Below, in pieces: positions 17,354-58,391 of a stretch of 64,000 bases of DNA. The DNA lies in NCBI GenBank assembly GCA_947650365.1, contig OX393555.1, positions 18,889,592-18,953,591 on the forward strand, read 5' to 3'. The DNA is from Chamaelirium japonicum. Its lineage: Eukaryota; Streptophyta; Magnoliopsida; Liliales; Melanthiaceae. The notes beneath the pieces are model-generated. The model did no database searches. It was given only the letters and a program-made list of their open reading frames with translations, and was not told where the DNA came from. The translations under genes were made by a program, and so were the position numbers. The first letter of the stretch is position 1. Each line of letters begins with the position of its first letter.

Positions 17354-17365
17354 CACTACAAGAAA
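17351..17365 (+). repeat. Left target duplication and terminal inverted repeat of the CACTA element
   Basis: TGA (17351-17353) followed by CACTACAAGAAA (17354-17365). CACTA is the diagnostic terminus of the En/Spm superfamily. Three-base target duplications are the rule for this superfamily. Confidence 0.9.
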
Positions 17366-17375
17366 GAGGGTCTTT

Positions 17376-18100
17376 ACCGACGGACATTTTTATCACCGTC
17401 GGTAATAATACACTTTTTACCGACGGTGACAATAATATCCGTCGGTATTATAACTTTAATTTTTAAATTTTTTTTGCACATTTATTACCGATGGTCAAAT
17501 AGTATTCGTCGGTACAATTATTTATACCGACGGTACATATATGTACCATCGGTAATATACTTTATACCGACGGCTACATAAAGACCGTCGGTAAAATGTC
17601 ACGACGGAACTCAGGGTAAAAACCAAGCCTCTGGAAAAAATGGAACCCTGAGTTTCGTCGGAGATTGTTACCGACGGACTTTATATTTCCGTCGGTATAA
17701 ATAATTATACCGACGGACATTATATGGCCGTCGTTACGATATCGATGGTAATTAAATATCCGTCGGTAAAATTGTCCCGACGAAACTCAGGATAAAAACC
17801 GAGCCTCTGGAAAAAAATGGAACCCTGAGTTTCATCGGCGATTTTTACCGACGGACTAAATAGTTCCGTCGGCATAACTAATTATACCGACGGAAATTAT
17901 ATGTCCGTCGGTACAATACCGACGGTAATTAAATATCCGTCGGTAAAATTATCCCGACGAAACTCAGGGTGAAAACCCGAGCCTCTGGAAAAAATAGAAC
18001 CCTGAGTTTCGTCGCTGATTTGTACCAACGGACATTATTATACCGTCGGTATAAAGTAATTATACCGACGGAACTTATAGTTCCATCGGTAAAAACTCCT
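17376..18100 (+). repeat. Left subterminal repeats, TACCGACGG in both orientations, with 177-bp tandem units
   Basis: More than twenty copies of TACCGACGG or its complement, with a few single-base variants, lie between 17376 and about 18095. From 17601 a larger unit is visible. A 57-61 base imperfect palindrome, with arms CGACGAAACTCAGGGT and ACCCTGAGTTTCGTCG, occurs at about 17601-17661, 17778-17838 and 17955-18014, an exact spacing of 177. These sites are expected to bind the element's TnpA protein during transposition. Confidence 0.88.
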
Positions 18101-18357
18101 TACTTATCCACCGTAGCCTGCACCCTTTTCTTTTTGTGTTTCGACTCCGGCGCGCGCCCCTCTCTCAATCTCTCTCTCTCTCTCACTGACCCGACCCCCC
18201 GGCGACCCCGTCCCCCTCCGGCAGCCCCGCGATCCCCTCCGGCCACCCATCCCCCTCCCGGCCACCCATCCCCCTCCCGACCTCCGCCCCTCCCCGGCCT
18301 CCCGGCCCTCTCTCTCTCTCCCCGGCCTCCTCCCCCCCTCCCCGGCCTCCCTAGCCT

Positions 18358-18412
<55 letters not shown>

Positions 18413-18600
18413 CCTCCCCTCACCTGTCTCTCTCTCTCTCGATCTAAACCCCCCCTCCGGCCGGCCACCCATCCCCTCCCTTGCACCTCCGGCCACCCCT
18501 CCGCTTTCTCGCACCACCGACTACGACACCAGTGCTCCTCCTCCTTCTCGAGGCCTGCCGACCATCGCTGGTGAGCTCCTCCTCCTCCTCCCTTTCCCCC
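18101..18600 (+). promoter_or_regulatory. CT/GC-rich leader region of the CACTA element
   Basis: Strongly pyrimidine-rich sequence with CCGGCC-type repeats and a (CT)n tract at 18361-18408. It ends in a plausible donor (GCTG then GTGAGC, about 18570). Its position between the subterminal repeats and the transposase gene suggests a transcribed leader, spliced to the transposase exon that begins by 19596. The 201-codon frame across it is Ser/Leu/Pro low-complexity and is not a protein. The promoter itself is not identifiable. Confidence 0.4.
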
Positions 18601-18845
18601 TTCGGTTAATTTGTGGTAATATATTGTGGTAATTTTTATTTAGGTAAAATCACAGGAATTAAATATAGTGTGGTATTGTGGTAATTTATTTAGGTAATAT
18701 ATTGTGGTAATTTTTATTAGGTAATTTATTATGGTAATTTTTATCTTGTGGTAATATATTGTGATTTACAACAATACCATAATTTGTGGTAATATATTTG
18801 TGGTAATATATTGTGGTTAATTCCCTCATTTGGTAATTTTTACAC
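18601..18845 (+). repeat. Tandem GTGGTAATATATT-type repeat, left copy
   Basis: Degenerate copies of TTGTGGTAATATATTGTGGTAA with TTTAGGTAA phrases. The same vocabulary, including AATCACAGGAATTAAATA, recurs in the same orientation near the right end at about 57600-57820. The two inner borders of the subterminal zones are therefore related sequence. Confidence 0.6.
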
Positions 18846-19054
18846 TGTTTTAAAACTCGCCGAGTCGACTCGAAACTCGGCCGAGTCGACTCGACTCGGC
18901 TGAGTTTCGATCCGACTCGGTCCAAAACTCGAGTTTCGATCCGACTCGGCTGAGTTTCGATCCGACTCGAGTTTTGTCGGGTTTTAGCCGAGTTGTCGTG
19001 TCTACTCGACTCATTAAGGTTTCGAGTCGAGTCGAGTTTTCGTGTTTTAAAACA
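18846..19054. mobile_element. Small inverted-repeat element nested in the CACTA element
   Basis: The ends are TGTTTTAAAACTCG on the left and CGTGTTTTAAAACA on the right. The interior is a run of GAGTCGACTCG, CGAGTTTCGATCCGACTCGG and similar phrases that pair with one another. There is no coding sequence. It looks like a short foldback MITE inserted in the CACTA leader intron. Confidence 0.5.
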
Positions 19055-19123
19055 TTGATTTTTATCCTATCAAAACTGAATTGAATGGGGGAATGGGGGG
19101 CAAAATGTAGTTTTTAGACTAGG

Positions 19124-19595: not shown

Positions 19596-22500
19596 ATGTC
19601 TTCGATCGATAAGAGTTGGATGCGTAATTCGAATCGCATGAGCCAAGAGTACAGAGAAGGAGTCAGGAAATTTCTGGATTTTGCATTTGAGCGTCTTGCA
19701 CCGCTTGATGGAAAAATTGTGTGTCCCTGTATAGACTACGGAAGGGTGATTAGGAAGGTTTGAGAGGAATGTGAGGTTGATCTGGTAATGCGTGGCATTG
19801 ACATTACCTATACCCGTTGGTTCTCGCACGGTGAGAAGCTAGATGCAGTCCCCATGGCAGCTCACGGTGAAACTTCAAACACAGTGATCGCTGATGATAA
19901 TATTAATACAGACGATGACGATGACATGCAGGGTATGATACATGATTTGCAAGGTGGAATAGGCACGGAAACACCGTCAGGTGATCAGCCCAATATCGAA
20001 GCGGACAAGTTCTACATATTGCTTAAAGATGTCGGACAACCTCTATACCCGGGGTGTGAGAAGTTTTCAAAACTCTCTTTCACTGTAAAGCTTCTTCATT
20101 TGAAGTGCCTTAATGGTTGGAGTAATAAGTCATTTAATATGTTGGTAGAGTTGCTGAAAGAGGCTTTTCCTATGGGTGAGACAGTACCGAAATCATTCTA
20201 CGAGGCGAAGAAGACAATTAAAGATCTTGGTATGGGTTATGAGAAAATCGATGCATGCGTGAACGATTGTATGTTGTACCGGAAAGAGTACGAACATGCA
20301 CGGTCATGCCACATATGCGGAGCAACGAGATATAAACAGACGGATGCCGAGTCTAGTACCAGTCGAAGGAAGAAAAATGTATCTGCAAAGATTCTCCTAT
20401 ACTTCCCGCTCAGGGACAGGCTTCAGAGGTTGTTTATGTCATCGAAGACTACTGAGCACATGAGGTGGCATGCACGAGAACGTACAGATGACGGGATTAT
20501 GAGACATCCGGCCGACTCTCTGACGTGGAAAGATTTTGATCATACCTATCCTGAATTCGCATATGAAGTTCGCAACGTCAGGTTAGGGCTTGCTAGCGAT
20601 GGCTTCAATCCCTTTGGGAATATGAGTGTGTCGTACAGCATTTGGCCAGTTGTCCTAGTTCCATACAATTTGCCTCCCTGGATGTGCTTAAAAAAGCCAT
20701 ACACAATGCTCTCCTTGCTCATTCCCGGACCCAGGTCGCCTGGTAATGATATTGACGTTTACTTGCAGCCGTTGATTGAGGAGTTGAACCAGTTATGGGA
20801 AGTTGGGGTCGATACGTATGATGCCTCATTGCGCCAGAATTTTCGGATGCATGCGGCACTTCTATGGACCATCAACGATTTTCCTACATATGCCAACTTA
20901 TCCGGGTGGAGTACTAAAGGAAAATTGGCGTGCCCTACATGCAATAAGGAGACAGATTCATTACGGTTGAAGAACGGAGGCAAGTTCTGTTATATGGGCC
21001 ATCGAAGATTCCTTGTTGACGGCCATAAGTGGAGGCAGAACAAAAGAGCTTTCAACGGCAAGAAGGAACTTGCAAAGGCCCCGGAGCAGCTTAAGTCTTG
21101 TGCGAATTGGATCAGCTTGATGCTGTGGCACTTGGAAAAGGTAAAAAGAAGAGAACGCATGAAGATTCTACGCGTGAGCATAACTAGAAGAAGAAGAGTA
21201 TTTTCTTTAAACTACCGTACTGGAGCAGCCTACTCTTGCGGCATAACTTGGATGTCATGCATATTGAGAAAAATGTGTGTGACAACATTATAGGAACACT
21301 GCTGAATCTCGACGGTAAGACGAAGGATAATCTTAAATCTCGTCTCGATCTTAAGGAGTTGGGCATCCGAAAATCACTTCATCCCCAAGAGATTGGGGAT
21401 AAGTATGTGTTGCCAGTTGCATGCTACACCATGAGCTCACAGCAAAAGGCAGCCTTATGTGCATTCCTATGGTCTGTGAAAACGCCAGACAGTTATTCTT
21501 CGAATATCGCACGATGCATGCAAGAGAACGGCCGGAAGTTGTCTAGATTAAAGAGCCACGATTGTCATGTTCTTATACAGCGATTGTTATCTCTTGCTAT
21601 ACGTGGGAATTTAACCGAACAGGTGTCCGGTCCGTTAATTGAGCTCAGCACTTTTTTCAGACAGTTGTGCTCGAAGGTACTTAGAGTGGACCAACTTGAA
21701 CAGATGGAGAGGGATATTGCGCTCACATTGTGCAAGTTAGAGATGATAATTCCACCTTCCTTTTTTGATGTCATGGTGCATTTGACCGTTCACTTAGCAA
21801 ATGAGGCCAAACTCGGCGGCCCAGTTCATTACCGGTGGATGTATTTTATCGAGAGGTAATCGTCTCGTCTCATTCGCACAATGTATTTGATCGTTCTTGA
21901 TATATTCATCCAAATATTTTTTTCTCAAATTAGGTACTTGCGAACATTGAAATCATATGTTCGTAATAAAAGTCGTCCGGAGGGATCAATTACTGAAGGA
22001 TACCTAGCAGAAGAATGTCTAACATTCTGCTCAAGATACCTACATGGTATAGACACGCGATTCAATCAACTTGAGCGGAACTATGACGGTAGTCCAATAG
22101 ACTTCGATGGGGGTCTGTCTATATTTGCCGAAATGGGTAGACCTGTAGGAGGAGGCAAAACCTGTCGATTGTCTGTAGATGAGATTCAACAGGCACATAT
22201 GTATGTGTTGCGCCAATGTGATGAAGTGTGGCCATTCATTGAGTAAGCATTTTACGATCATTTACTCATTCTTTCAGTCCATTCATTAAGTATATGTGCT
22301 AATTATAATCTAATTCATAACCGGTAAAACAGGAAGCATAAAGCCATCATTAATAATCGGGGTACTCGAAATGCTCCCCAAATTCATGATCGTGAATTCC
22401 CATCGTGGTTTGAGAAACACGTAAGTATTCACATCATTACTGAATTTCATTGACATCCATTACCGAACAATAATTATGTGTTCATATCATGAATGTGATG

Positions 22501-23187
22501 TGGTTATTATAGGCACAGGAGCTGCACGACAACCACGATCCGCTGATGAATGAGGATCTCTGGCGTTTATCTTGTAGTCCTTTGCAAGATGCAATATCGT
22601 ACGATGGTTATATCGTGAACGGTTATAGATTTCGGACGAAAGATAGTGAAAAATCACGAAGAACCCAAAATAGTGGGGTTGTCGTCAACGGTGAGCAAGA
22701 AGAATTAGAAAATATCGACTTCTACGGTGTCCTCAACGAGATTCTCGAGATTAAATTCCTTGGCCAAAATCGAATCGTATTATTCAAATGCGATTGGTAT
22801 GATGTTAATAATCGCGGGACTGGTTATAATGTCGACAAATACGGTTTTATCAGCATCAACACTGCCAAGAGATTGAATACCCAATATGAAGATCCATTCA
22901 TTCTTGCCTCTCAAGCGCAACAGATATATTATGCACCGGATAATACCTCTCCAGGTTGGCAAATTGTAGTCAGGTCACCAACCAGAGATTTTTATGACAT
23001 GGGAGACAAGGATGCGGGGGTCGTCGATGATGATTTGGATGCATACCAGAATGATAAGATAATCATTGTCGACGCAGTGCACGACGAAAATGAAGATGTC
23101 GACAATATAAACTGGACAGCGAATGCAGATCAAATAATAGAAGAGGGAAGCGATGAGAGTGACAGAGATGAGACAGAAAATGACTAG
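19596..23187 (+). pseudogene. CACTA TNP2-type transposase (TnpD-like), damaged
   Basis: The catalytic transposase of the element, thought to cut at the CACTA ends. Exon model: 19596-21855, 21934-22242, 22333-22420 and 22513-23187, with good GT..AG borders and matching phases. The start at 19596 is chosen because MSSIDKSWMRNSNRMSQEYR opens the Transpos_assoc domain. Transposase_21 (TNP2) follows, with NDCMLYRKEYEHARSCHICG, then FPTYANLSGWSTKGKLACPT and LDVMHIEKNVCDN. The DUF4218 part spans the intron at 21856 (YFIE then RYLRTLKSYVRNKSRPEGSI). The DUF4216 part has IVLFKCDWYDV near 22770. Lesions: a TGA at 19761-19763, a probable loss of the third cysteine in CPCIDY, a frameshift near 21090 and a TAG at 21185-21187. 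From 21188 the frame stays open to the end. The C-terminus is acidic and ends DETEND. Confidence 0.93.
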
Positions 23188-23204
23188 ACCGTATGTAAAT
23201 CAAA

Positions 23205-23349
23205 TTGTTTCATATTTAAATCAAATTGTTTCATATATAAATCATATTGTTTCATATGTATATCATATTGTTTCATATATAAATCATACCGTTTCACCGA
23301 TTCATATGTAAATCATACCTTTTCATATGTAAATCATACAGTTTCACCG
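23205..23349. repeat. TTTCATATGTAAATCATAC minisatellite, left part
   Basis: About seven degenerate copies of TTTCATATGTAAATCATA(C/T)TG, of roughly 19-21 bases, follow directly on the transposase stop codon. The same minisatellite resumes at 24268, on the far side of the inverted satellite block, so the block appears to interrupt it. Confidence 0.7.
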
Positions 23350-24267
23350 ATTTACGATCCGATCGATTCACCGATTTAGAGTCTAAGTGTTGGAAAATCA
23401 TAAGTTAGCGTGTTTCGGATATGAAATAGGTTTGGATTCGATCGGATCGTCATCGGATCGGCATCCGATAATTCGAAGTTGGAATTATTCCGTATTTCGG
23501 ACTTGCGAGCGGGTTCTAATTGGATATTTGACCAATTTACGCTCCGATTCACCAATTTAGAGTCTAAGTGTTGGAAAATCATAACTTAGCGTGTTTCGGA
23601 TATGAAATAGGTTTGGATTCGATCGGATCGTCATCGGATCGGCATCCGATAATTCGAAGTTGGAATTATTCCGTATTTCGGACTTGCGAGCGGGTTCTAA
23701 TTGGATATTTGACCAATTTACGCTCCGATTCACCGATTTAGAGTCTAAGTGTTGAAAAATCATAACTTAGCGTGTTTCGGATATGAAATAGCTAGGTTTG
23801 GATTCGATCAGATCGTCATCGAATCGGCATCCGATAATTCGAACTTGGAATTATTCTGTATTTCGGACTTGCGAGCGGGTTCTAATTGGATATTTGACCA
23901 ATTTACGCTCCGATTCACCGATTTAGAGTCTAAGTGTTGGAAAATCATAACTTAGCGTGTTTCGGATATGAAATAGGTTTGGATTCGATCCGATCATCAT
24001 CGGATCGGCATCCGATAATTCAAACTTGGAATTATATTCCGTATTTCGGACTTGCGAGCGGGTTCTAATTGGATATTTGACCAATTTACGATCCGATTAA
24101 CCGATTTAGAGTCTAACTGTTGGAAAATCATAAGTTAGCGTGTTTCGGATATGAAATAGGTTTGGATTCGATCCGATCGTCATCGGATCGGCATCCGATA
24201 ATTCGAACTTGGAATTATATTCCGTATTTCGGACTTGCGAGCGAGTTATAATTGGATATTTGACCAA
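23350..24267 (-). repeat. Five 181-bp satellite monomers in inverted orientation
   Basis: About five copies of the same 181-bp monomer that makes up the large array, here as its reverse complement (for example TTAGAGTCTAAGTGTTGGAA at intervals of about 181). Some copies carry small insertions (GAAATAGCTAGG, TTATATTCC). They lie between the two CACTA genes, within a TTTCATATGTAAATC minisatellite. With the large array they form a widely spaced inverted repeat around the TnpA gene. Confidence 0.92.
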
Positions 24268-24471
24268 TTATAACTGTTTCATATGTAAATCATACCATTT
24301 CATATGTAAATCAAACTGTTTCATATTGTTTCATAAATCATACTGTTTTATATGTAAATCAAACTATTTCATATTGTTTCATATGTAAATCATACTGTTT
24401 CATATGTAAATCAAACTGTTTTATATTGTTTCATATGTAAATCTTACTGTTTCATATATAAATTAAATTGT
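24268..24471. repeat. TTTCATATGTAAATCATAC minisatellite, right part
   Basis: About ten degenerate copies of the same short unit as at 23205-23349, ending five bases before the start codon of the TnpA-type gene. It may act as the leader of that gene. Confidence 0.7.
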
Positions 24472-24476
24472 TTCAG

Positions 24477-26173
24477 ATGGCATCACGGTCATATGTTTGT
24501 AGAGGCAGAGGCATGGGTGGGGTAGCTCGGAGCGCTCCGGCTGCCACCCCAGGGTCCGAGGCTGAGCCGTTCGGATCTGGTAGTGCTGTTCCTCTCTCCA
24601 CACCAGCTCCTGCTGTGGTCGCAGCCTCCGGAGCTTCGAGCAGTGCTCAGCACTCGGCTACAGCGTCTACGCCCACAGGTAATGTTTAGATCTAAAGTTT
24701 TATACATGTTGTAAATACTTCTTCAGTACTGATGTATATTTTATTTGCAGGGTCGACCAGGCACGTAGGCGACCGGGGCGTGACGACGGCCCGGCGCTTG
24801 TCGGCCTTACGCGAGCCACTGTCCCTACAGTGGAGCGGCAGGACCTTTGTGGGCGAGCACGCTTCTGACGCCGCCATGTGGGTCGGCATGATAGTACGGG
24901 AGGAAAGGAATGCCCCGATTATGGGGTTTAGGGGGTGGAAGAACATTGATGCATCCTATAAGGAGAGGATGTATCAGCAGTTTTTGGTACGTTAGTTTCA
25001 TTAAAGCATTTTAGAATAATATCGTACTTCTTTATAATTTGATTTGATAAAATGACTTGTTTCTAAATTAATTTTACAGGAGAAATTTAAATAGGAGAAC
25101 ATGGAAACCGACACCCATCGGGAGGACTTGTGGAAGACGATGGGTGAGCGGTACAGGGATTACCATCACGAGCTCTACCAGCTCTACGGTTACTTGGTCG
25201 GCCAACCGGCTGAGGAGGTACAGGCTGCGGTCGAGACGAGAGACGCACCACCGCTATACATTCTATAGTTTTTGGTCGCTCACTGGGCCACCCCTAGCTT
25301 TCAGGTATAATTATAATTTTGTTGATTCGTACTTGTTTTAATGTTATACTAAAAATTTGTATTGATGTTTCAAAATTTAATCGATTGACACAAGCGAAAT
25401 CTGCTATAGGCAAGCAGAATAGAAGTGCCTCGACGACACCTGCTCCAGTGAAGGGGAGGACCTCCATGCCCCAGCTTGCCCAGCAGCTGGTAAATGATAC
25501 AAACAATATTGTTATTATTTAAAGCTCTATACATGTTATATTAACTCATCTATTTATTTTATATGTCCAATAGACACAGTCCTTGGGCCACGAGCCTAAT
25601 ACGATTACCTTTTTGAGGCCTCTAGGAGGCGGCGTATCGATGGAGCATTTCTGGACGACAGGGTTGCCTCGCAAGTGGTAAGTAATTAAATTACTGTTAA
25701 TATATTCTTATACATATGCCATAAAATATCATTGAATATCATTGGTTGTTTTTATATAGGGGAGGATGCGACTTCTGGTGACCCCGTCGGGCGAGGCCGG
25801 CTCCTCCTCCAGCTCAGTATCTGTCAACTCAGCGATGGATACTGTGCTGAGACCTGCCATGCACGGCCGTGTCCTCTGTACGGGCCTTGGAGTCACGCCC
25901 TCCTCCTACTTTGGACGAGAGGGTATGCGCTCGAGGGCACGGGACACCCAGACCGGTGCTATCACTCAGCTGCAGTCTGCGCTAGATGCGGAGCGAGAGC
26001 AGAGGCAGGCCCTCGAGCAGAGGATTGAGGCGGAGCGAGAGCAGAGGCAGGCCATCGAGCAGAGGGTTGAGGCGGAGAAGAAGGCCCTCGATGAGGAAAG
26101 AGAAGCTCGCAGGGAACTGGAGCGTAAATTTTATGAATTCATAAGCCGATCTAGCGGTGGCTCATCCTCATGA
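24477..26173 (+). pseudogene. CACTA TnpA/Transposase_24-type protein gene, damaged
   Basis: The second CACTA gene, whose product is expected to bind the subterminal repeats. The start ATG at 24477 follows TTTCAG. Exons seen: 24477-24678, 24751-24986, 25080-25304, about 25395-25491, a short one ending about 25678, and the last from about 25760 to the TGA at 26171-26173. Exon 1 is an Ala/Ser/Pro-rich linker. Exon 2 holds FRGWKNIDASYKERMYQQFL, the conserved transposase_24-like segment. Exon 3 ends FLVAHWATPSFQ, then IGKQNRSASTTPAPVKGRTS and RRRRIDGAFLDDRVASQV follow. The last exon has the VLCTGLGVTPSSYFG motif and a C-terminal coiled coil of about 60 residues built on AEREQRQALEQRIE repeats. Damage: TAG in KFK*ENMETDTH, TAG after PPLYIL, an in-frame stop before YDYLFEA, and a phase mismatch between exons 3 and 4. 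A donor (AAG then GTACTTAC) just after the stop codon suggests a 3' untranslated intron. Confidence 0.85.
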
Positions 26174-26252
26174 TAAGGTACTTACTAATCTTTATAATAT
26201 TAGCAAAAAATATGAATCTTACTAATTTGAGTTTAGATCATATTATCACACT

Positions 26253-26310
26253 TATGATTTTCCAACACTTACACTCGAAATCGGTAAATCGGATCGTAAA
26301 TGGTCTCTCT
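26253..26310 (+). repeat. Isolated partial 181-bp monomer
   Basis: CTTATGATTTTCCAACACTT followed by diverged AAATCGGTAAATCGG and GATCGTAAATGG, then a (TC)n run. It is the first ~55 bases of a monomer in the large array's orientation. It is more diverged than the array copies and separated from the array by 400 bases, so it may be an older copy from which the array was seeded, or a remnant cut off by an insertion. Confidence 0.75.
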
Positions 26311-26383: not shown

Positions 26384-26497
26384 GTGTGTGCCTCGTTGGA
26401 AGAGGGATATCTCCCTCATGTGACATTTGTAGTGGACACAACAATATGCCACCCAACGGAGTTCGATTTCTATCTCTGCAGTTATGCTGGCATACAG
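26384..26497 (+). pseudogene. ARGONAUTE1-like PIWI-domain exon with internal deletion
   Basis: A 114-base, 38-codon open exon between an acceptor (ATGCTAG ending at 26383) and a donor (CAG then GTAAAC at 26498). It encodes [17 protein letters not shown] followed by [20 protein letters not shown] and Q. Plant AGO1-clade proteins carry CASLE..Y.P.VTFVVVQKRHH and, about 35 residues later, VVD(T/S)[19 protein letters not shown], ending at a known exon border. Here the two segments are joined directly and the intervening part, with the intron that normally lies there, is missing. The H of CSHAGIQ is Y. ARGONAUTEs are the small-RNA-binding slicers of gene silencing; this 38-residue piece cannot be functional as a protein. 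It lies between the TnpA gene and the satellite, in the same orientation. The identification rests on remembered family sequence but is strong. Confidence 0.88.
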
Positions 26498-26617: not shown

Positions 26618-26707
26618 GGGCTGTAATTGTAAGGATTTTCAAACTAGAGGGGGACATTTGTAGGGTTTTAAACATGAGGGGGTGAAAGTGATAATCACTA
26701 AAAAATA

Positions 26708-29700
26708 CAATTAGAACCCACTCGCAAGTCCGAAATACAGAATAATTCCAAGTTCGAATTATCGGATGCCGATCCGATGACGATCCGATCGAATCCAAAC
26801 CTATTTCATATCCGAAACACGCTAAGTTATGATTTTCCAACACTTAGACTCTAAATCGGTGAATCGGAGCATAAATTGGTCAAATATCCAATTAGAACCC
26901 ACTCGCAAGTCCGAAATACATAATAATTCCAAGTTCGAATTATCGGATGCCGATCCGATGACGATCGGATCGAATCCAAACCTATTTCATATCCGAAACA
27001 CGCTAAGTTATGATTTTCCAACACTTAGACTCTAAATCGGTGAATCGGAGCGTAAATTGGTCAAATATCCAATTAGAACCCGCTCGCAAGTCCGAAATAC
27101 GAAATAATTCCAACTTCGAATTATCGGATGCCGATCCGATGACGATCAGATCGAATCCAAACCTATTTCATATTCGAAACACGCTAACTTATGATTTTCC
27201 AACACTTAGACTCTAAATCGGTGAATCGGAGTGTAAATTGGTCAAATATCCAATTAGAACCCGCTCGCAAGTCCGAAATATGGAATAATTCCAACTTCGA
27301 ATTATCGGATGCCGATCCGATGACGATCGGATCGAATCCAAACCTATTTCATATCCGAAACATGCTAAGTTATGATTTTCCAACACTTAGACTCTAAATC
27401 GGTGAATCAGAGCGTAAATTGGTCAAATATCCAATTAGAACCCGCTCGCAAGTCCGAAATACGGAATAATTCCAACTTCGAATTATCGGATGCCGATCCG
27501 ATGACGATCCGATCGAATCCAAACCTATTTCATATCCGAAACACGCTAACTTATGATTTTCCAACACTTAGACTCTAAATCGGTGAATCGGAGCATAAAT
27601 TGGTCAAATATCCAATTAGAACCCGCTCGAAAGTCCGAAATACGGAATAATTCCAACTTCGAATTATCGGATGCCGATCCGATGACGATCGGATCGAATC
27701 CAAACCAATTTCATATCCGAAACACGCTAACTTATGATTTTCCAACACTTAGACTCTAAATCGGTGAATCGGAGCGTAAATTGGTCAAATATCCAATTAG
27801 AACCCACTCGCAAGTCCGAAATACGGAATAATTCCAACTTTGAATTATCGGATGCCGATCCGATGACGATCCGATCGAATCCAAACCTATTTCATATCCG
27901 AAACACGCTAAGTTATGATTTTCCAACACTTAGACTCTAAATCGGTGAATCGGAGCGTAAATTGGTCAAATATCCAATTAGAACCCGCTCGCAAGTCCGA
28001 AATACGGAATAATTCTAACTTCGAATTATCGGATGCCGATCCGATGACGATCGGATCGAATCCAAACCTATTTCATATCCGAAACACGCTAAGTTATGAT
28101 TTTCCAACACTTAGACTCTAAATCGGTGAATCGGAGCGTAAATTGGTCAAATATCCAATTAGAACCCGCTCACAAGTCTGAAATACGGAATAATTCAAAC
28201 TTCGAATTATCGGATGCCTTTCCGATGACGATCGGATCGAATCCAAACCAATTTCATATCCGAAACACGCTAACTTATGATTTTCCAACACTTAGACTCT
28301 AAATCGGTGAATCGGAGCGTAAATTGGTAAAATATCCAATTAGAACCCGCTCGCAAGTCCGAAATACGGAATAATTCAAAGTTCGAATTATCGGATGCCG
28401 ATCCGATGACGATCGGATCGAATCCAAACCTATTTCATATCCGAAACACGCTAAGTTATGATTTTCCAATACTTAGACTCTAAATCGGTGAATCGGAGCG
28501 TAAATTGGTCAAATATCCAATTAGAACCCGCTCGCAAGTCCGAAATACGGAATAATTCCAACTTCGAATTATCGGATGCCGATCCGATGACGATCGGATC
28601 GAATCCAAACTTATTTCATATCCGAAACACGCTAACTAATGATTTTCCAACACTTAGACTCTAAATCGGTGAATCGGAGCGTAAATTGGTCAAATATCCA
28701 ATTAGAACCCGCTCGCAAGTCCGAAATAAGGAATAATTCAAACTTTGAATTATCGGATGCCGATCCGATGACGATCAGATCGAATCCAAACCTATTTCAT
28801 ATCCGAAACACGCTAACGTATGATTTTCCAACACTTAGACTCTAAATCGGTGAATCGGAGCGTAAATTGGTCAAATATCCAATTAGAACCCGCTCGCAAG
28901 TCCGAAATATGGAATAATTCCAACTTCGAATTATCGGATGCCGATCCGATGACGATTGGATCGAATCCAAACCTATTTTATATCCGAAACACGCTAACTT
29001 ATGATTTTCCAACACTTATACTCTAAATCGGTGAATCGGAGCGTAAATTGGTCAAATATCCAATTAAAACCCGCTCGCAAGTCCGAAATACGGAATAATT
29101 CCAACTTCGAATTATCGGATACCGATCCGATGACGATCGGATCGAATCCAAACCTATTTCATATCCGAAACACGCTAAGTTATGATTTTCCAACACTTGG
29201 ACTCTAAATCGGTGAATCGGAGCGTAAATTGGTCAAATATCCAATTAGAACCCGCTCGCAAGTCCAAAATACGGAATAATTCCAACTTCGAATTATCGGA
29301 TACCGATCCGATGACGATCCGATCGAATCCAAACCTATTTCATATCCGAAACACGCTAAGTTTTGATTTTCCAACACTTAGACTCTAAATCGGTGAATCG
29401 GAGCGTAAATTGGTAAAATATCCAATTAGAACCCGCTCGCAAGTCCAAAATACGGAATAATTCCAAGTTCGAATTATCGGATGCCGATCCGATGACGATC
29501 AGATCGAATCCAAACATATTTCATATCCGAAACACGCTAAGTTATGATTTTCCAACACTTAGACTCTAAATCGGTGAATCGGAGCGTAAATTGGTCAAAT
29601 ATCCAATTAGAACCCGCTCGCAAGTCCGAAATACGGAATAATTCTAACTTCGAATTATCTGATGCCGATCCGATGACGATTGGATCGAATCCAAACCTAT

Positions 29701-47700: not shown

Positions 47701-50700
47701 ATCCAATTAGAACCCGCTCGCAAGTCCGAAATACGGAATAATTCCAACTTCGAATTATCGGATGCCGATCCGATGACGATAGGATCGAATCCAAACCTAT
47801 TTCATATCCGAAACACGCTAAGTTATGATTTTCCAACACTTAGACTCTAAATCGGTGAATCGGAGCGTAAATTGGTCAAATATCCAATTAGAACCCGCTC
47901 GCAAGTCCGAAATACGGAATAATTCCAACTTCGAATTATCGGATGCCGATCCGATGACGATCCGATTGAATCCAAACCTATTTCATATCCGAAACACGCT
48001 AACTTATGATTTTCCAACATTTAGACTCTAAATCGGTGAATCGGAGCGTAAATTGGTCAAATATTCAATTAGAACCCGCTCGCAAGTCCGAAATACGGAA
48101 TAATTCCAAGTTCAAATTATCGGATGCCGATCCAATGACGATCGGATCGAATCCAAACCTATTTCATATCCGAAACACGCTAAGTTATGATTTTCCAACA
48201 CTTAGACTCTAAATCGGTGAATCGGAGCGTAAATTGGTCAAATATCCAATTAGAACCCGCTCGCAAGTCCGAAATACGGAATAATTCCAACTTCGAATTA
48301 TCGGATGCCGATCCGATGACGATCGGATCAAATCCAAACCAATTTCATATCCGAAACACGCTAACTTATGATTTTCCAACACTTAGACTCTAAATCGGTG
48401 AATCGGAGCGTAAATTGGTCAAATATCCAATTAGAACCCGCTCGCAATTCCGAAATACGGAATAATTCCAACTTCAAATTATCGGATGCTGATCCGATGA
48501 CGATCCGATTAAATCCAAACCAATTTCATATCCGAAACACGCTAAGTTATGATTTTCTAACACTTAGACTCTAAATCGGTGAATCGGAGCGTAAATTGGT
48601 CAAATATCCAATTAGAACCCGCTCGCAAGTCCGAAATACGGAATAATTCCAACTTCGAATTATCGGATGCCGATCCGATGACGATCGGATCGAATCCAAA
48701 CCTATTTCATATCCGAAACACGCTAAGTTATGATTTTCCAACACTTAGACTCTAAATCGGCGAATCGGAGAGTAAATTGGTCAAATATCCAATTAGAACC
48801 CGCTCGCAAGTCCGAAATACGGAATAATTCCAACTTCGAATTATCGGATGCCGATCCGATGACGATCCGATCGAATCCAAACCTATTTCATATCCGAAAC
48901 ACGCTAAGTTATGATTTTCCAACACTTAGACTCTAAATCGGTGAATCGGAGCGTAAATTGGTCAAATATCCAATTAGAACCCGCTCGCAAGTCCGAAATA
49001 CGGAATAATTCCAAGTTCAAATTATCGGATGCCGATCCGATGACGATCGGATCGAATCCAAACCTATTTCATATCCGAAACACGCTAAGTTATGATTTTC
49101 CAACACTTAGACTCTAAATCGGTGAATCGGAGCGTAAATTGGTCAAATGTCCAATTAGAACCCGCTCGTAAGTCCGAAATACGGAATAACTCCAACTTCG
49201 AATTATCGAATGCCGATCCGATGACGATCGGATCGAATCCAAACCTATTTCATATCCGAAACACGCTAAGTTATGATTTTCCAACACTTAGACTCTAAAT
49301 CGGTGAATTGGAGCGTAAATTGGTCAAATATCCAATTAGAACCCGCTCGCAAGTCCGAAATACGAAATAATTCCAACTTCGAATTATCGGATGCCGATCC
49401 GATGACGAACGGATTGAATCCAAACCTATTTCATATCCGAAACACGCTAACTTATGATTTTCCAACACTTAGACTCTAAATCGGTGAATCGAAGCGTAAA
49501 TTGGTCAAATATCCAATTAGAACCCGCTCGCAAGTCCGAAATACGGAATAATTCCAACTTCAAATTATCGGATGCCGATCCGATGACGATCTGATCGAAT
49601 CCAAACCTATTTCATATCCGAAACACGCTAACTTATGATTTTCCAACACTTAGACTCTAAATCGGTGAATCGGAGCGTAAATTGGTCAAATATCCAATTA
49701 GAACCCGCTCGCAAGTCCGAAATACAAAATAATTCCAACTTCGAATTATCGGATGCCGATCCGATGACGATCGGATCGAATCCAAACTTATTTCATATCC
49801 GAAACACGCTAAGTTATGATTTTCCAACACTTAAGACTCTAAATCGGTGAATCGGAGCGTAAATTGGTCAAATATCCAATTAGAACCCGCTCGCAAGTCC
49901 GAAATACAGAATAATTCCAACTTCGAATTATCGGATGCCGATCCGATGATGATCCGATCGAATCCAAACCTATTTCATATCCGAAACACGCTAACTTATG
50001 ATTTTCCAACACTTAGACTCTAAATCGGTGAATCGGAGTGTAAATTGGTCAAATATCCAATTAGAACCCGCTCGCAAGTCCGAAATACGGAATAATTCCA
50101 AGTTCGAATTATCGGATGCCGACCGATGATGATCGGATCGAATCCAAACCTATTTCATATCCGAAACACGCAAAGTTATGATTTTCCAACACTTAGACTC
50201 TAAATCGGTGAATCGAAGCGTAAATTGGTCAAATATCCAATTAGAACCCGCTCGCAAGTCCGAAATATGGAATAATTCCAACTTCGAATTATCGGATGCC
50301 GATCCGATGACGATCGGATCAAATCCAAACCAATTTCATATCCGAAACACGCTAACTTATGATTTTTCAACACTTAGACTCTAAATTGGTGAATCGGAGC
50401 GTAAATTGGTCAAATATCCAATTAGAACCCGCTCGCAAGTCCGAAATACGGAATAATTCCAACTTCGAATTATCGGATGCCGATCCGTTGACGATCCGAT
50501 TGAATCCAATCCTATTTCATATCCGAAACACGCTAAGTTATGATTTTCCAACACTTAGACTCTAAATCGGTGAATCAGAGCGTAAATTGGTCAAATATCC
50601 AATTAGAACCCGCTCGCAAGTCCGAAATACGGAATAATTCCAACTTCGAATTATCGGATGTCGATCCGATGACGATCGGATCGAATCCAAACCTATTTCA

Positions 50701-53700
50701 TATCCGAAACACGCTAAGTTATGATTTTCCAACACTTAGACTATAAATCGATGAATCGGAACGTAAATTGGTCAAATATCCAATTAGAACCCGCTCGCAA
50801 GTCCGAAATATGGAATAATTCTAAGTTCGAATTATCGGATGCCGATCCGATGACGATCGGATCGAATCCAAACCAATTTCATATCCGAAACACGCTAAGT
50901 TATGATTTTCCAACACTTAGACTCTAAATCGGTGTATCGGAGCGTAAATTGGTCAAATATCCAATTAGAACCCGCTCGCAAGTCCGAAATACGGAATAAT
51001 TCCAACTTCGAATTATCGGATGCCGATCCGATGACGATCGGATCGAATCCAAACCTATTTCATATCCGAAACACGCTAACTTATGATTTTCCAACACGTA
51101 GACTCTAATTCGGTGAATCGGAGCGTAAATTGGTCAAATATCCAATTAGAACCCGCTCGTAAGTCCAAAATACGGAATAATTCCAATTTCGAATTATCGG
51201 ATGCCGATCCGATGACGATCGGATCGAATCCAAACCAATTTCATATCCGAAACACGCTAAGTTATGATTTTCCAACACTTAGACTCTAAATCGGTGAATC
51301 GGAGCGTAAATTGGTCAAATATCCAATTAGAACCCGCTCGCAAGTCCGAAATACGGAATAATTCCAACTTCGAATTATCGGATGCCGATCCGATGACGAT
51401 CGGATCGAATCCAAACCTATTTCATATCTGAAACACGCTAAGTTATGATTTTCCAACACTTAGACTCTAAATCGGTGAATCGGAGCGTAAATTGGTCAAA
51501 TATCCAATTAGAACCCGCTCGCAAGTCTGAAATACGGAATAATTCCAACTTCGAATTATCGGATGCCGATCCGATGACGATCGGATCGAATCCAAACCAA
51601 TTTCATATCTGAAACATGCTAACTTATGATTTTCCAACACTTAGACTCTAAATCGGTGAATCGGAGCGTAAATTGGTCAAATATCCAATTAGAACCCGCT
51701 CGCAAGTCCGAAATACGGAATAATTCCAAGTTCGAATTATCGGATGCCGATCCGATGACGATCGGATCGAATCCAAACCTATTTCATATCCGAAACACGC
51801 TAAGTTATGATTTTCCAACACTTAGACTCTAAATCGGTGAATCGGAGTGTAAATTGGTCAAATATCCAATTAGAACCCGCTCGCAAGTCCGAAATACGGA
51901 ATAATTCCAAGTTCGAATTATCGGATGCCGATCCGATGACGATCGGATCGAATCCAAACCTACTTCATATCCGAAACACGCTAACTTATGATTTTTCAAC
52001 ACTTAGACTCTAAATCGGTGAATCGGAGCGTAAATTGGTCAAATATCCAATTAGAACCCGCTCGCAAGTCCGAAATACGGAATAATTCCAACTTCGAATT
52101 ATCGGATGCCAATCCGATGACGATCTGATCGAATCCAAATCTATTTCATATCCGAAACACGCTAACTTATGATTTTCCAACACTTAGACTCTAAATCGGT
52201 GAATCTGAGCGTAAATTGGTCAAATATCCAATTAGAACCCGCTCGCAAGTCCGAAATATGGAATAATTCCAACTTTGAATTATCGGATGCCGATCCGATG
52301 ACGATCGGATCGAATCCAAACCTATTTCATATCCGAAACACGCTAAATTATGATTTTCCAACACTTAGACTCTAAATCGGTGAATCGGAGCGTAAATTGG
52401 TCAAATATCCAATTAGAACCCGCTCGCAAGTCCGAAATACGGAATAATTCTAACTTCGAATTATCGGATGCCGATCCGATGACGATCCGATCGAATCCAA
52501 ACCTATTTCATATCCGAAACACGCTAACTTATGATTTTCCAACACTTAGACTATAAATCGGTGAATCGGAGCGTAAATTGGTCAAATATCCAATTAGAAC
52601 CCGCTCGCAAGTCCGAAATACGGAATAATTCCAACTTTGAATTATCGGATGCCGATCCGATGACGATCGGAGCAAATCCAAACCAATTTCATATCCGAAA
52701 CACGCTAACTTATGATTTTCCAACACTTAGACTCTAATTCGGTGAATCGGAGCGTAAATTGGTCAAATATCCAATTAGAACCCGCTCGCAAGTCCGAAAT
52801 ACGGAATAATTCCAACTTCGAATTATCGGATGCCGATCTGATGACGATCCGATCGAATCCAAACATATTTCATATCCGAAACACGCTAAGTTAGGATTTT
52901 CCAACACTTAGACTCTAAATCGGTGAATCGGAGCGTAAATTGGTCAAATATCCAATTAGAACCCGCTCTCAAGTCCGAAATACGGAATAATTCCAACTTC
53001 GAATTATCGGATGCCGATCCGATGACGATCGGATCGAATCCAAACCTATTTCATATCCGAAACACGCTAACTTATGATTTTCCAACACTTAGACTCTAAA
53101 TCGGAGAATCGGAGCGTAAATTGGTCAAATATCCAATTAGAACCCGCTCGCAAGTCCGAAATACGGAATAATTCCAACTTCGAATTATCGGATGCCAATC
53201 CGATGGCGATCGGATCGAATCAAAACCAATTTCATATCTGAAACACGCTAACTTATGATTTTCCAACACTTAGACTCTAAATCGGTGAATCGGAGCGTAA
53301 ATTGGTCAAATATCCAATTAGAACCCGCTCGCAAGTCCGAAATACGGAATAATTCCAAGTTCAAATTATCGGATGCCGATCCGATGACGATCGGATCGAA
53401 TCCAAACCTATTTCATATCCGAAACAAGCTAAGTTATGATTTTCCAACACTTAGACTCTAAATCGGTGAATCGGAGCGTAAATTGGTCAAATATCCAATT
53501 AGAACTTGCTCGCAAGTCCAAAATATGGAATAATTCCAACTTTGAATTATCGGATGCCGATCTGATGACGATCGGATCAAATCCAAACCAATTTCATATC
53601 CGAAACACGCTAACTTATGATTTTCCAACACTTAGACTCTAAATCGGTGAATCGGAGCGTAAATTGGTCAAATATCCAATTAGAACCCGCTCGCAAGTCC

Positions 53701-56700
53701 GAAAAACGGAATAATTCCAACATCGAATTATCGAATGCCGATCCGATGACGATCCGATCGAATCCAAACCAATTTCATATCCGAAACACGCTAACTTATG
53801 ATTTTCCAACACTTAGACTCTAAATCGGTGAATCGGAGCGTAAATTGGTCAAATATCCAATTAGAACCCGCTCGCAAGTCCGAAATACGGAATAATTCCA
53901 ACTTCGAATTATCGGATGCCGATCCGATGACGATCGGATCGAATCCAAACCAATTTCATATCCGAAACACGCTAAGTTATGATTTTCCAACACTTAGACT
54001 CTAAATCGGTGAATCGGAGCGTAAATTGGTCAAATATCCAATTAGAACCCGCTCGCAAGTCCGAAATACGGAATAATTCCAACTTCGAATTATCGGATGC
54101 CGATCCGATGATGATCGGATCGAATCCAAACCTATTTCATATCCGAAACACGCTAAGTTATGATTTTCCAACACTTAGACTCTAAATCGGTGAATCGGAG
54201 CGTAAATTGGTCAAATATCCAATTAGAACCCGCTCGCAAGTCAGAAATACGGAATAATTCCAACTTCGAATTATCGGATGCCGATCCGATGACAATCGGA
54301 TCGAATCCAAACCAATTTCATATCCGAAACACGCTAACTTATGATTTTCCAACACTTAGACTCTAAATCGGTGAATCGGAGCGTAAATTGGTCAAATATC
54401 CAATTAGAACCCGCTCGCAAGTCCGAAATATGGAATAATTCCAAGGTTGAATTATCGGATGCCGATCCGATGACGATCGGATCGAATCCAAACCTATTTC
54501 ATATCCGAAACACGCTAACTTATGATTTTCCAACACTTAGACTCTAAATCGGTGAATCGGAGCGTAAATTGGTCAAATATCCAATTAGAACCCGCTCGCA
54601 AGTCCGAAATACAGAATAATTCCAACTTTGAATTATCGGATGCCGATCCGATGATGATCGGATCGAATCCAAACCTATTTCATATCCGAAACACGCTAAC
54701 TTATGATTTTCCAACACTTAGACTCTAAATCGGTGAATCGGAGCGTAAATTGGTCAAATATCCAATTAGAACCCGCTCGCATGTCCGAAATACGGAATAA
54801 TTCCAACTTAGAATTATCGGAAGCCGATCCGATGATGATCGGATCGAATCCAAACCTATTTTCATATCCGAAACACGCTAACTTATGATTTTCCAACACT
54901 TAGACTCTAAATCGGTGAATCAGAGCGTAAATTGGTCAAATATCTAATTAGAACCCGCTCGCAAGTCCGAAATACGGAATAATTCCAACTTCGAATTATC
55001 GGATGCCGATCCGATGACGATCGGATCGAATCCAAACCTATTCATATCCGAAACACGCTAAGTTATGATTTTCCAACACTTAAACTCTAAATCGGTGAAT
55101 CGGAGCATAAATTGGTCAAATATCCAATTAGAACCCGCTCGCAAGTCCGAAATACGAAATAATTCCAACTTCGAATTATCGGATGCCGATCCGATGATGA
55201 TCCGATCGAATCTAAACCTATTTCATATCCGAAACACGCTAACTTATGATTTTCCAACACTTAGACTCTAAATCGGTGAATCGGAGCGTAAATTGGTCAA
55301 ATATCCAATTAGAACCTGCTCGCAAGTCCGAAATACGGAATAATTCCAACTTTGAATTATCGGATGCCGATCCGATGACGATCGGATCGAATCCAAACCA
55401 ATTTCATATCCGAAACACGCTAACTTATGATTTTCAAACACTTAGACTCTAATTCGGTGAATCGGAGCGTAAATTGGTCAAATATCCAATTAGAACTCGC
55501 TCGCAAGTCCGAAATACGGAATAATTCCAACTTCGAATTATCGGATGCCGATCTGATGACGATCCAATCGAATCCAAACATATTTCATATCCGAAACACG
55601 CTAAGTTATGATTTTCCAACACTTAGACTCTAAATCGGTGAATCGGAGCGTAAATTGGTCAAATATCCAATTAGAACCCGCTCGTAAGTCTGAAATACGG
55701 AATAATTCCAACTTCGAATTATCGGATGCCAATCCGATGGCGATCGGATCGAATCCAAACCAATTTCATATCTGAAACACGCTAACTTATGATTTTCCAA
55801 CACATGGACTCTAAATCGGTGAATCGGAGCGTAAATTGGTCAAATATCCAATTAGAACCCGCTCGCAAGTCCGAAATACGGAATAATTCCAAGTTCAAAT
55901 TATCGGATGCCGATCCGATGACGATCGGATCGAATCCAAACCTATTTCATATCCGAAACACGCTAAGTTATGATTTTCCAACACTTAGACTCTAAATCGG
56001 TGAATCGGAGCGTAAATTGGTCAAATATCCAATTAGAACCCGCTCGCAAGTCCGAAATACAGAATAATTCCAACTTTGAATTATCGGATGCCGATCCGAT
56101 GACGATCGGATCAAATCCAAACCTATTTCATATCCGAAACACGCTAACTTATGATTTTCCAACACTTAGACTCTAAATCGGTGAATCAGAGCGTAAATTG
56201 GTCAAATATCCAATTAGAACCCGCTCGCAAGTCCGAAATATGGAATAATTCCAACTTCGAATTATCGGATGCCGATCCAATGACGATCGGATCGAATCCA
56301 AACCTATTTCATATCCGAAACACGCTAACTTATGATTTTCCAACACTTAGACTCTAAATCGGTGAATCGGAGCGTAAATTGATCAAATATCCAATTAGAA
56401 CCCGCTCGCAAGTCCGAAATACGGAATAATTCCAACTTCGAATTATCGGATGCCGATCCGATGACGATCGGATCGAATCCAAACCTATTTCATATCCGAA
56501 ACACGCTAACTTATCATTTTCCAACACTTAGACTCTAAATCGGTGAATCGGAGCGTAAATTGGTCAAATATCCAATTAGAACCCGCTCACAAGTCCGAAA
56601 TACGGAATAATTCCAATTTCAAATTATCGGATGCCGATCCGATGACGATCCGATCGAATCAAAACCTAGCTATTTCATATCCGAAACACGCTAAGTTATG

Positions 56701-57388
56701 ATTTTTCAACACTTAGACTCTAAATCGGTGAATCGGAGCGTAAATTGGTCAAATATCCAATTAGAACCCGCTCGCAAGTCCGAAATACGGAATAATTCCA
56801 AGTTCGAATTATCGGATGCCAATCCGATGACGATCGGATCGAATCCAAACCTATTTCATATCCGAAACACGCTAACTTATGATTTTCCAACACTTAGACT
56901 CTAAATCGGTGAATCGGAGCGTAAATTAGTCAAATATCCAATTAGAACCCGCTCGCAAGTCCGAAATACGGAATAATTCCAACTTCGAATTATTGGATGC
57001 TGATCCGATGACGATCGGATCGAATCCAAACACATTTCATATCCGAAACACGCTAACTTATGATTTTCCAACACTTAGACTCTAAATCGGTGAATCGGAG
57101 CGTAAATTGGTCAAATATATCCAATTAGAACCCGCTCGCAAGTCCGAAATACGGAATAATTCCAACTTCGAATTATCGGATGCCGATCCGATGACGATCG
57201 GATCGAATCCAAACCTATTTCATATCCGAAACACGCTAACTTATGATTTTCCAACACTTAGACTCTAAATCCAAGTCCGAAATACGGAATAATTACAACT
57301 TCGAATTATCGGATGCCGATCCGATCGAATCCAAACCTATTTCAAAACCGAAACACGCTAACTTATCATTTTTTAACGCTTAGACTCA
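26708..57388 (+). repeat. 181-bp satellite array, about 170 monomers
   Basis: Head-to-tail copies of one 181-bp monomer containing, in order, ATGATTTTCCAACACTTAGA, GGTGAATCGGAGCGTAAATT, CCAATTAGAACCCGCTCGCA, ATACGGAATAATTCC and a dyad CGATCCGATGACGATCGGAT, then CATATCCGAAACACGCTAA. Copies differ by only a few substitutions, and indels are rare. Recurring variants include CGCTAAGTTATG or CGCTAACTTATG at the joint and ATCCGATCG or ATCGGATCG in the dyad. Because 181 is not a multiple of three, the 68-codon frame found in nearly every monomer changes frame from copy to copy. It is a by-product of the repeat, not a gene. The last monomers, from about 57105, carry insertions and deletions, and the array ends about 57388. 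Confidence 0.97.
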
Positions 57389-57434
57389 GTTATAGATATA
57401 AACCATTTTTTTAACAAATACATGTTAATTGCAG

Positions 57435-57600
57435 GAGCAGGGCGGCGTCAGGGGATCGATGAGAGCACCAGCGTTGGTGGTGGGCGGGCGTGGTTGAGAT
57501 TGGGCGGCTTCAGGGGATCGATGAGAGCACCAGCGTTGGTGGCGGGCGGGGGTGGTTGAGATAGGGCATATATCATCTCTCAGTTCTGGATTGTGTAAAT
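57435..57600 (+). other. Possible 3' exon after the array, with a 62-bp tandem duplication
   Basis: TTAATTGCAG ends at 57434 and is a good splice acceptor. The sequence then becomes GC-rich. GGCGGC(G/T)TCAGGGGATCG opens two nearly identical 62-base copies at 57441-57502 and 57503-57564, which end GTTGAGAT(T/A)GG or similar. The sequence is in the same orientation as the TnpA gene. With the donor just after that gene's stop codon, it suggests a spliced 3' untranslated exon whose intron holds the ARGONAUTE exon and the satellite. This is inference only. It does not encode a recognisable protein. Confidence 0.45.
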
Positions 57601-57840
57601 ATTATTTTGTAATATGTGGTTATTTTTTGTTCTTGTCTATAATTGTCGGCCGGGTACTGTGGTAATATTTGATAATTTGCTGTAATTTTTTATCAATTTA
57701 GGTAATATTTTAAAATTTGCGGTAATATTTTATAAATTATGGTAATATTTGATAAATTGTGGTAATATATTGTGGTATTGTTATAAATCACAGGAATTAA
57801 ATAACATTATTTAGGTAAATTTATTAAAAAAAAAACATAC
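57601..57840 (+). repeat. Tandem GTGGTAATATTT-type repeat, right copy
   Basis: Degenerate GTGGTAATATTTGATAAATT units and AATCACAGGAATTAAATAAC, matching the vocabulary of the stretch at 18601-18845 in the same orientation. It forms the inner border of the right subterminal zone. Confidence 0.6.
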
Positions 57841-57844
57841 TTAT

Positions 57845-58371
57845 TACCGACGGAAATTAATTATTCCGTCGGTAATAATGTTTTTATTTTTTTTAAATTA
57901 TAAGTAATTTGCCGACGGCATATAATATTTGTCGGTAATATATATATTATTACCGACGGGCAATATATATGCGTCGGTAATAGATATAGTATTACCGACG
58001 GATATATAATATTTGTCGGTAATATATATATTATTACCGACGGGCAATATATATATGCGTCGGTAATATATATAGTATTACCGACAGTATAGACCATAAC
58101 CGTCGGTAAAATGCTTATATATTACCGACGGATTCTTAAGTTACGTCGGTAAATATATATTATATTAATTTTTAATTGATTAAATATTACCGACGGCATT
58201 AATATTACCGTCGGTATTAATTCTTATTACCGACGGTAATATTTGGTCCGTCGTATTGTTTTCCCCGACGCATTTTTTCCCGACAGCCAGCGACGGAAAT
58301 ATCTTCTGTCGCTATAGAACATTACCGACGGAATGTTAATATTACCGACGGATATTGTCCGTCGGTAATAA
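57845..58371 (+). repeat. Right subterminal TACCGACGG repeats
   Basis: About two dozen copies of TTACCGACGG or CCGTCGGTAAT, often arranged head to head around AT-rich spacers of about 20 bases, with a few variants (CGTCGGTAATA without the leading C). The palindromic 177-base unit of the left end is absent here, so the two subterminal zones differ in structure. Presumed binding sites for the TnpA-type protein. Confidence 0.88.
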
Positions 58372-58376
58372 CTGTT

Positions 58377-58391
58377 TTTTTTGTAGTATGA
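58377..58391 (-). repeat. Right terminal inverted repeat and target duplication of the CACTA element
   Basis: TTTTTTGTAGTA ends at 58388 and TGA follows at 58389-58391. Read from the outside on the minus strand the terminus is TACTACAAAAAA, so the first base differs from the C of the left end. The matching TGA on both sides makes this boundary secure. Confidence 0.85.

Follow-up and report, generated by a model that had tools for sequence, protein, structure and literature searches.

We analyzed a 64,000-nucleotide stretch of DNA, hereafter the window (C7:18889592-18953591), from the 1.52-Gb Chamaelirium japonicum assembly of 3,253 contigs. The window contains a CACTA transposon in which 31.5 kb consists of a 181-bp satellite, divided between a major array (30.6 kb) and a minor array (0.9 kb); an earlier interpretation of the same DNA, the sequence-only reading, had put the satellite at about 31.6 kb. 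The features of the locus, in window coordinates, are the following.

17354..58388, + strand: whole CACTA element, 41,035 bp, delimited by its termini, target site duplication (TSD) and empty paralogous sites
17351..17353: left copy of the TSD, TGA; a single TGA at three empty paralogous sites
58389..58391: right copy of the TSD, TGA; a single TGA at the same three sites
17354..18085, + strand: left terminal inverted repeat CACTACAAGAAAG and subterminal ACCGACGG/CCGTCGGT repeats
19764..23187, + strand: TNPD-type transposase gene, several open stretches (Transposase_21, DUF4218, DUF4216)
23192..23352, + strand: 21-bp repeats (TTTCATATGTAAATCATAC-like), left of the minor array
23364..24269, - strand: minor satellite array, about 5 x 181 bp, orientation opposite to the major array
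24272..24475, + strand: 21-bp repeats, right of the minor array
24475..26173, + strand: second gene (TNPA position), exon-like open stretches
26252..26305, + strand: degenerate 55-bp monomer piece (monomer positions 127-181), outside the arrays
26384..26497, + strand: Argonaute PIWI exon piece, in frame, with ~26 middle residues missing relative to AGO10
26701..57271, + strand: major satellite array, 168.9 x 181 bp, 30,571 bp
57272..57391, + strand: right array edge, where the last monomers are truncated and degenerate; junction common to the fetched relatives
57375..57660, + strand: block following the array on its right, present in each of the 20 fetched right-end copies
57840..58388, + strand: right subterminal repeats and terminal inverted repeat

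The left terminus CACTACAAGAAAG starts at 17354, directly after TGA, and the right terminus TTTTTTTGTAGTA finishes at 58388 (...GTAGTA), directly before TGA. Short ACCGACGG/CCGTCGGT subterminal repeats are present in both orientations at each end. The element thus shows the CACTA-type terminal inverted repeats, 3-bp TSD, subterminal repeats and TNPD/tnp2-type transposase that define CACTA (En/Spm) elements. The first 300 bp of the left end had 40 scored copies (self counted) at 96-100%. The interior is free of N, and the sole gap in the window lies at 63153-63652. We searched the genome with a query of 600 positions in which both flanks were joined with one TGA, and obtained 25 places, 2 of them being the window's own halves. 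The insertion point was crossed by 13 of the 25, with 8 matching the whole query (85-97%) and 5 extending up to position 423 of 600 (85-86%); 7 others matched the left flank and ended 7-11 bases beyond the junction, and 3 matched the right part alone. Three of the eight full-length sites were fetched; on alignment, they had one TGA where the flanks meet and no gap there. The flank belongs to a repeat, and identity reaches 97% at best, which is why we take these empty sites to be probable paralogues. As the paralogous flanks run through the target site without an insert, both ends are part of one CACTA insertion, and 17354-58388 is a single element. These results uphold the proposal of one element with intact ends, a TSD, subterminal repeats and an internal satellite, and they speak against the concern, raised with it, that the two ends might come from different elements. 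The insertion site (flanks 17054-17353 and 58392-58691) lies within a repeat that has 23 further listed places.

The major array is a satellite in the usual sense, a long head-to-tail array of near-identical 181-bp monomers, with 96% matches between the 181-bp copies and 169 of 169 anchors in one orientation. A single internal array had been described at first, but we found two, and they are inverted. The consensus of the minor array differs from that of the major array at 1 of 181 positions, a site that is variable within the major array itself. The five best minus-strand matches between the two arrays covered 906-907 bp at 96.4-96.7%, and no plus-strand match was found at word size 20; by its sequence, the minor array could pair with the major array over 906 bp at about 96%. 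The degenerate piece at 26252-26305, which is ~0.4 kb left of the major array and immediately upstream of the Argonaute piece, matched the monomer with 90.9% identity (E 2.6e-16, 74.3 bits, compared with 28.3 bits for the best of 30 shuffles) and may be a relic of an earlier array edge. We also compared the monomer with the element minus its arrays. Among the 12 rows viewed, nothing beyond this 55-bp piece exceeded words of 12-14 bp, and a derivation of the monomer from the transposase gene, the second gene or the terminal repeats was therefore rejected.

Related copies were sampled at their right ends. Of 1,972 first-look candidates, 39 non-self places were listed, and for the best 20 of these we fetched 10 kb of sequence running inward. 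The plus-strand array was present in all 20; it stopped ~1 kb short of the right end and had the same block behind it. Array lengths ranged from 2,251 to 8,795 bp with a median of 4,249 bp, two of them being lower bounds (the array of L041 fills its stretch and that of L038 is cut by a 500-N gap). The window array is the longest seen; the longest among the fetched copies is at least 8.8 kb. The right junction could be read in 20 of 20 copies and fell into two subtypes that differ by point changes, 9 window-like and 11 of the other kind. The left junction had the window form, identically, in 5 of 20, and the other 15 were deletion forms, belonged to another left subtype or were not reached. The right end of the window copy reads TAGTA (final base A), compared with TAGTG (final G) in 20 of 20 fetched copies. 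Where the minor array was visible (12 of 20 copies), it was always on the minus strand and left of the second gene or, in L034, of the former place of this gene. In L034 (positions 1-8800 in element orientation) we found no match to the second gene, and the inverted arrays, 354 bp apart, form a large inverted repeat.

Six of the fetched copies (L028, L030, L031, L033, L039 and L042) had both ends and an internal deletion; they had lost the minus array and kept the plus array. Five of the six had one break at or within the plus array. At 4 of 5 deletion junctions, the matches on either side shared an overlap of 3-8 bp, which can fit repair, although chance extension of the matches could account for part of it. 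All six were bordered by a perfect 3-bp TSD (CAT, TTT, AGT, ATC, AAG and ACC, read by eye), and one of their six left ends, that of L042, starts with TACTA. Separate insertions that share the right junction contain arrays of ~2-9 kb, so the arrays moved with their elements. The array is therefore a built-in part of the family, and the window copy is extreme in length, not in kind. The idea that a DNA transposon carries the satellite was thus borne out, and the suggested look at the monomer content of other copies returned an array of 2.3-8.8 kb in each of the 20. In contrast, the notion of a single unusual transposon enlarged by its array did not survive, the family having ~1,400-1,500 right ends in the genome.

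We then turned to counts over the whole assembly, for which the first 100 places per count were listed and reversed sequences served as controls. With up to 2 mismatches, the array-to-element right junction occurred at 1,428 sites, the right terminus at 1,505 sites and a 29-mer of the block between them at 1,004 sites; the reversed controls gave 0 in each case. A conserved 30-mer of the monomer had 23,380 exact sites and, with up to 3 mismatches allowed, 45,829 (reversed controls 0), far above what chance would give. Assuming one 181-bp monomer for each match, ~45,800 matches represent ~8.3 Mb, that is 0.55% of the assembly or 32 per junction. On C1 up to 89.77 Mb, an exact junction lay 0.4-1.6 kb inward of 68 of the 79 exact right termini, compared with a mean of 0.05 and a maximum of 2 in 200 shifted controls. 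Of the 11 other termini, 7 had the 29-mer 0.7-0.8 kb inward (matched by eye). The first 100 listed junctions were spread over C1, and the array clusters described below were scattered over 5.8 Mb, a distribution read from the assembled sequence.

The first 100 exact monomers by coordinate formed 11 clusters over the first 5.8 Mb of C1, and no free satellite array was found among these 11 clusters of assembled sequence. Element sequence directly adjoined 9 of them (8 fetched at one edge, 1.45 kb, plus L030); of the 8 fetched edges, 6 continued into the family block and right end, and 2 were minor arrays beside the transposase gene. The link was indirect for 2 of the 11, one having a family right end 0.6 kb past the last exact monomer (L030, positions 286-748) and the other a listed junction and terminus 7-8 kb away. 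The sequence-only reading would have fallen had the monomer been found mainly outside CACTA elements, which is not what these clusters and the fetched copies show. Elsewhere on C1, at 89270950-89277816, three exact right junctions lie on one strand, 3.3-3.5 kb apart, each with its neighboring block; this is perhaps a tandem of element right halves and a possible start of a free array.

How the arrays change could be followed from their monomers. In the window array, monomers differed on average at 5.9-7.0 of 181 positions for the sampled lags between 1 and 120, and at 7.7 for lag 150, a nearly flat profile that indicates little decay along the array. Duplicated blocks were evident, with 12 runs of at least 4 monomers (chosen at no more than 2 differences per monomer) compared with 0-1 in each of 20 shuffles, and 73 of the 168 monomers lay within such recognizable runs. 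The longest run, found at lag 26, extended over 21 monomers (3.8 kb) and contained 15 differences (0.4%), and the three longest block duplicates diverged by 0.4-0.7%. The nearest sampled relative was 1.5% away over the right part (20 relatives) and 2.25% away over the second gene (8 relatives), so the blocks appear to postdate the divergence of the window copy from each of the relatives sampled. The window array contained 132 distinct monomers out of 168, in 59 clusters at up to 2 differences, whereas 168 monomers drawn at random from the 20 other arrays gave on average 159 distinct types and 96 clusters; the window array is thus enriched for local copies. Consistently, the nearest own monomer in the window copy was 1.57 differences away, compared with 2.85 ± 0.12 for size-matched foreign monomers. 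In the same size-matched comparison, own monomers were nearer than foreign ones in 18 of 21 arrays (the exceptions being L029, L032 and L040), and for five arrays, those of the window copy, L028, L041, L044 and L046, the gap exceeded 3 standard deviations.

Monomers were clearly more alike inside the element in L027, L028, L031 and L033 (4.8-5.4 differences within, 6.3-6.8 between), and more different inside than to other elements in L035, L045 and L046. As differences within and between elements are similar in most arrays, these four aside, dispersal by transposition appears to shape the satellite as well; the data suggest that it does so as much as local homogenization. Ordered descent of the inner monomers was not supported, since string alignments of the window array with the 20 other arrays never rose above the best of 10 shuffles, with ties in 5 (L030, L032, L035, L037 and L045). 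At the edges, the outermost left monomer was clearly closer than expected (4.0 versus 8.5 differences; 15 pairs from 6 copies) and the fourth monomer from the right slightly so (5.5 versus 7.2; 210 pairs), with little or nothing at other positions.

Together, these results very probably reflect an abundant CACTA family whose progenitor already had two inverted 181-bp arrays and which carries and disperses the satellite, the window element being a very long member that became so partly by block duplication. The progenitor would have had the short array behind the transposase gene and the long one in the interval from the second gene to the right end. In the fetched copies, the arrays are carried along within the element at transposition, which makes the transposon the dispersal vehicle of the satellite in this sample; the genome counts agree. 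Array length then shifts by gain or loss of monomer blocks inside fixed edges, as seen in the block duplications and the length differences. Misaligned repair synthesis and unequal exchange at tandem repeats, as well as gap repair after transposon excision, are established processes. Out-of-register copying in break repair, including gap repair after excision, plus unequal exchange would be the likely process in this family. In the window copy, the major array reached 169 monomers, partly by duplication of blocks that comprise as many as 21 monomers. Most likely, the element tolerates the array as a passenger.

Several points weigh against this interpretation. The mechanism of array change is one that we infer. 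The 20 fetched copies are the closest by right end, so distant subfamilies free of arrays are under-sampled. Four of the 79 exact C1 right termini had neither an exact junction nor a listed 29-mer (by eye), and 32 of the 100 listed exact junctions lacked an exact terminus. The low divergence of the block duplicates is partly a consequence of how the runs were chosen. Finally, monomers of the window array differ by 6.62 within the array and by 7.45 to other elements, unlike what plain in-place amplification of few founders would give.

Another possibility is that the 41-kb form is old, the progenitor array having been about this long, the element having moved at full size and most other copies having shrunk. 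The 132 distinct monomers and 59 clusters are many for growth from few founders, fewer than half of the monomers (73 of 168) fall in recognizable duplicated runs, and other copies hold much of the same variant pool. However, a random draw from other elements gave even more types and clusters, the nearest monomers are local ones, and the order of the inner monomers is unlike that of the relatives. Moreover, no comparable array was seen, the longest fetched one being at least 8.8 kb, although a listed monomer and a listed junction on the same strand are separated by 12.5 kb. We consider an old 41-kb form unlikely while giving it real weight. The sequence-only reading had left the choice between insertion followed by expansion and movement of a very large element, and the data decide it only in part: arrays of 2-9 kb moved with their elements and part of the 30.6 kb stems from duplicated blocks that seem young, but the bulk of the monomers show the same diversity as monomers elsewhere in the family. 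Recent capture of a free satellite by the window element alone, a reading that the authors of a study on Chenopodium quinoa gave to their arrays (PMC8978399), has next to no chance here, given the array in 20 of 20 fetched copies, the 1,428 junctions and the lack of a free array among the 11 clusters examined. An older, single capture of the satellite by the progenitor may have taken place. An assembly artefact, either two elements joined through the array or an array duplicated by the assembler, might be suspected for a long and repetitive array judged from the assembly, with a 500-N gap 4.8 kb right of the element. It is nevertheless very improbable, as three paralogous empty sites join both flanks with one TGA, the array contains no N, and the three longest block duplicates differ from each other, unlike exact assembler duplicates.

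The arrays might also be retained as helpful to the family, through double-stranded RNA from the inverted pair, a transcription end signal or binding sites. The minor array was opposite to the major one in 12 of 12 fetched copies that show it, at a place left of the second gene, the two could pair as described above, and 6 of 6 internal-deletion copies with both ends kept the major array. Against this, the same 6 copies have lost the minor array, the copies were found by their right end so that losses of the right part fall outside the sample, and a common position is expected from descent alone; we regard such a benefit as improbable.

The transposase region (19.8-23.2 kb, + strand) matched Transposase_21 (E 5.1e-101) in a family search, plus DUF4218 and DUF4216. 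A protein search returned 4,355 proteins, with 48-62% identity among the 120 listed and none near-identical among those; the listed homologues bearing a species name were all from plants. The DUF4218 frame has a stop at 21857-21859 and then carries on with what looks like sequence typical of the domain. A gene broken by this stop was set aside, the resumption of the frame making an intron more likely. The transposase gene also shows a frame change near 21.2 kb. The second gene sits where TNPA is expected. Two CACTA genes had been announced in the sequence-only reading, and this held for the transposase gene; the second gene is exon-like, with no family above its cutoff in the two stretches tested.

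A 38-residue stretch upstream of the major array matched plant AGO10 (E 3.5e-12) in two pieces of 8.6 bits, weak alone, and 36.2 bits, and 24 of 24 sequences matched by it were Argonautes. A 31-mer of this Argonaute piece had 227 sites genome-wide at up to 2 mismatches, and the 100 listed sites include L027, L029, L031, L037, L040, L043, L044 and L046. A Piwi profile search of the genome listed several similar short matches plus probable host Argonaute genes, with exons near C2:90735813, C8:78507899 and C4:6184262. The piece thus appears to have been captured by the CACTA family. A Pack-CACTA is non-autonomous and carries host pieces; the window element differs in having its own transposase gene, of predicted function, beside the putatively captured piece. 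One could imagine that the inverted arrays around the second gene fold a transcript into double-stranded RNA and that the Argonaute piece feeds small RNAs touching host Argonautes, a module against or within silencing that would have helped the family to reach ~1,400 copies, with the giant array as an overgrown form; we give this scenario very little credence. In L044 (positions 4400-5300 in element orientation), ~0.9 kb that is absent from the window copy lies between the Argonaute piece and the array and looks partly exon-like to the eye; L037, L040 and L043 have a spacing like that of the L044 left subtype.

Tandem repeats carried by transposons have precedents. Arrays derived from long terminal repeat (LTR) retrotransposons are said to arise from tandem repeats carried by the element; the carrier is there of class I, whereas the window element is a DNA transposon that still has its two ends. 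Tetris of Drosophila virilis is reportedly a Foldback element with internal tandem repeats. In Galileo of Drosophila willistoni, a member of the P superfamily, internal tandem repeats are one of the reasons why the terminal inverted repeats of three copies are extended (PMC4168063). Galileo and Tetris resemble the window element in being DNA transposons with tandem repeats inside, but neither is a CACTA. The Chenopodium CACTA-like element Jozin is described as the source of the CficCl-61-40 satellite, a ~40-bp tnp2 piece having founded the monomer (PMC7320549). Jozin is thus likewise a CACTA-like satellite source, whereas the 181-bp monomer shares words of no more than 14 bp with the transposase gene of the window element and was found only with elements.

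The closest system is a CACTA element of Chenopodium quinoa, of 16,523 bp, with a Transposase_21 gene and an array of 32.5 x 171 bp (5,550 bp) near its 3' end. According to that report, elements on three other scaffolds contain the array too, fluorescence in situ hybridization finds the satellite scattered along the chromosomes, and a relative has a similar satellite without CACTA (PMC8978399). Both elements are CACTA with Transposase_21 and an internal array close to the 3' end. The monomers are unrelated, with best shared words of 8-10 bp. The portion seen of the Chenopodium quinoa report names four scaffolds and an element of 16.5 kb and reports no inverted second array, compared with ~1,400 junctions, 41 kb and an inverted pair here. 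A satellite array in a CACTA element is therefore already known (PMC8978399), while the scale across the family, the presence of two inverted arrays, the length of 41 kb and the captured piece of an Argonaute exon are apparently new. None of the titles and abstract openings listed from open-licence papers described a CACTA of 41-kb size with such an array. As to the cargo, a rice CACTA carries miR820 against the methyltransferase OsDRM2 (PMC3459959). This cargo is also related to host silencing, but it is a tested microRNA there and an Argonaute exon piece known from sequence here.

These findings bear on how satellites scatter over a genome and how new satellites start. Within the sample, the satellite is bound to a single family of DNA transposons whose right junction is fixed and whose arrays measure ~2-30 kb. 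Each copy being its own insertion, satellite growth, loss and spread become measurable copy by copy. The window also shows that a CACTA element can measure 41 kb and retain both ends. Outside the element, the window contains a second, unrelated tandem repeat at 11195-12328, with 2.7 copies of a 418-bp unit at 97%, and minus-strand open frames at 2726-8340, which bear a resemblance to a Helitron Rep/helicase gene.

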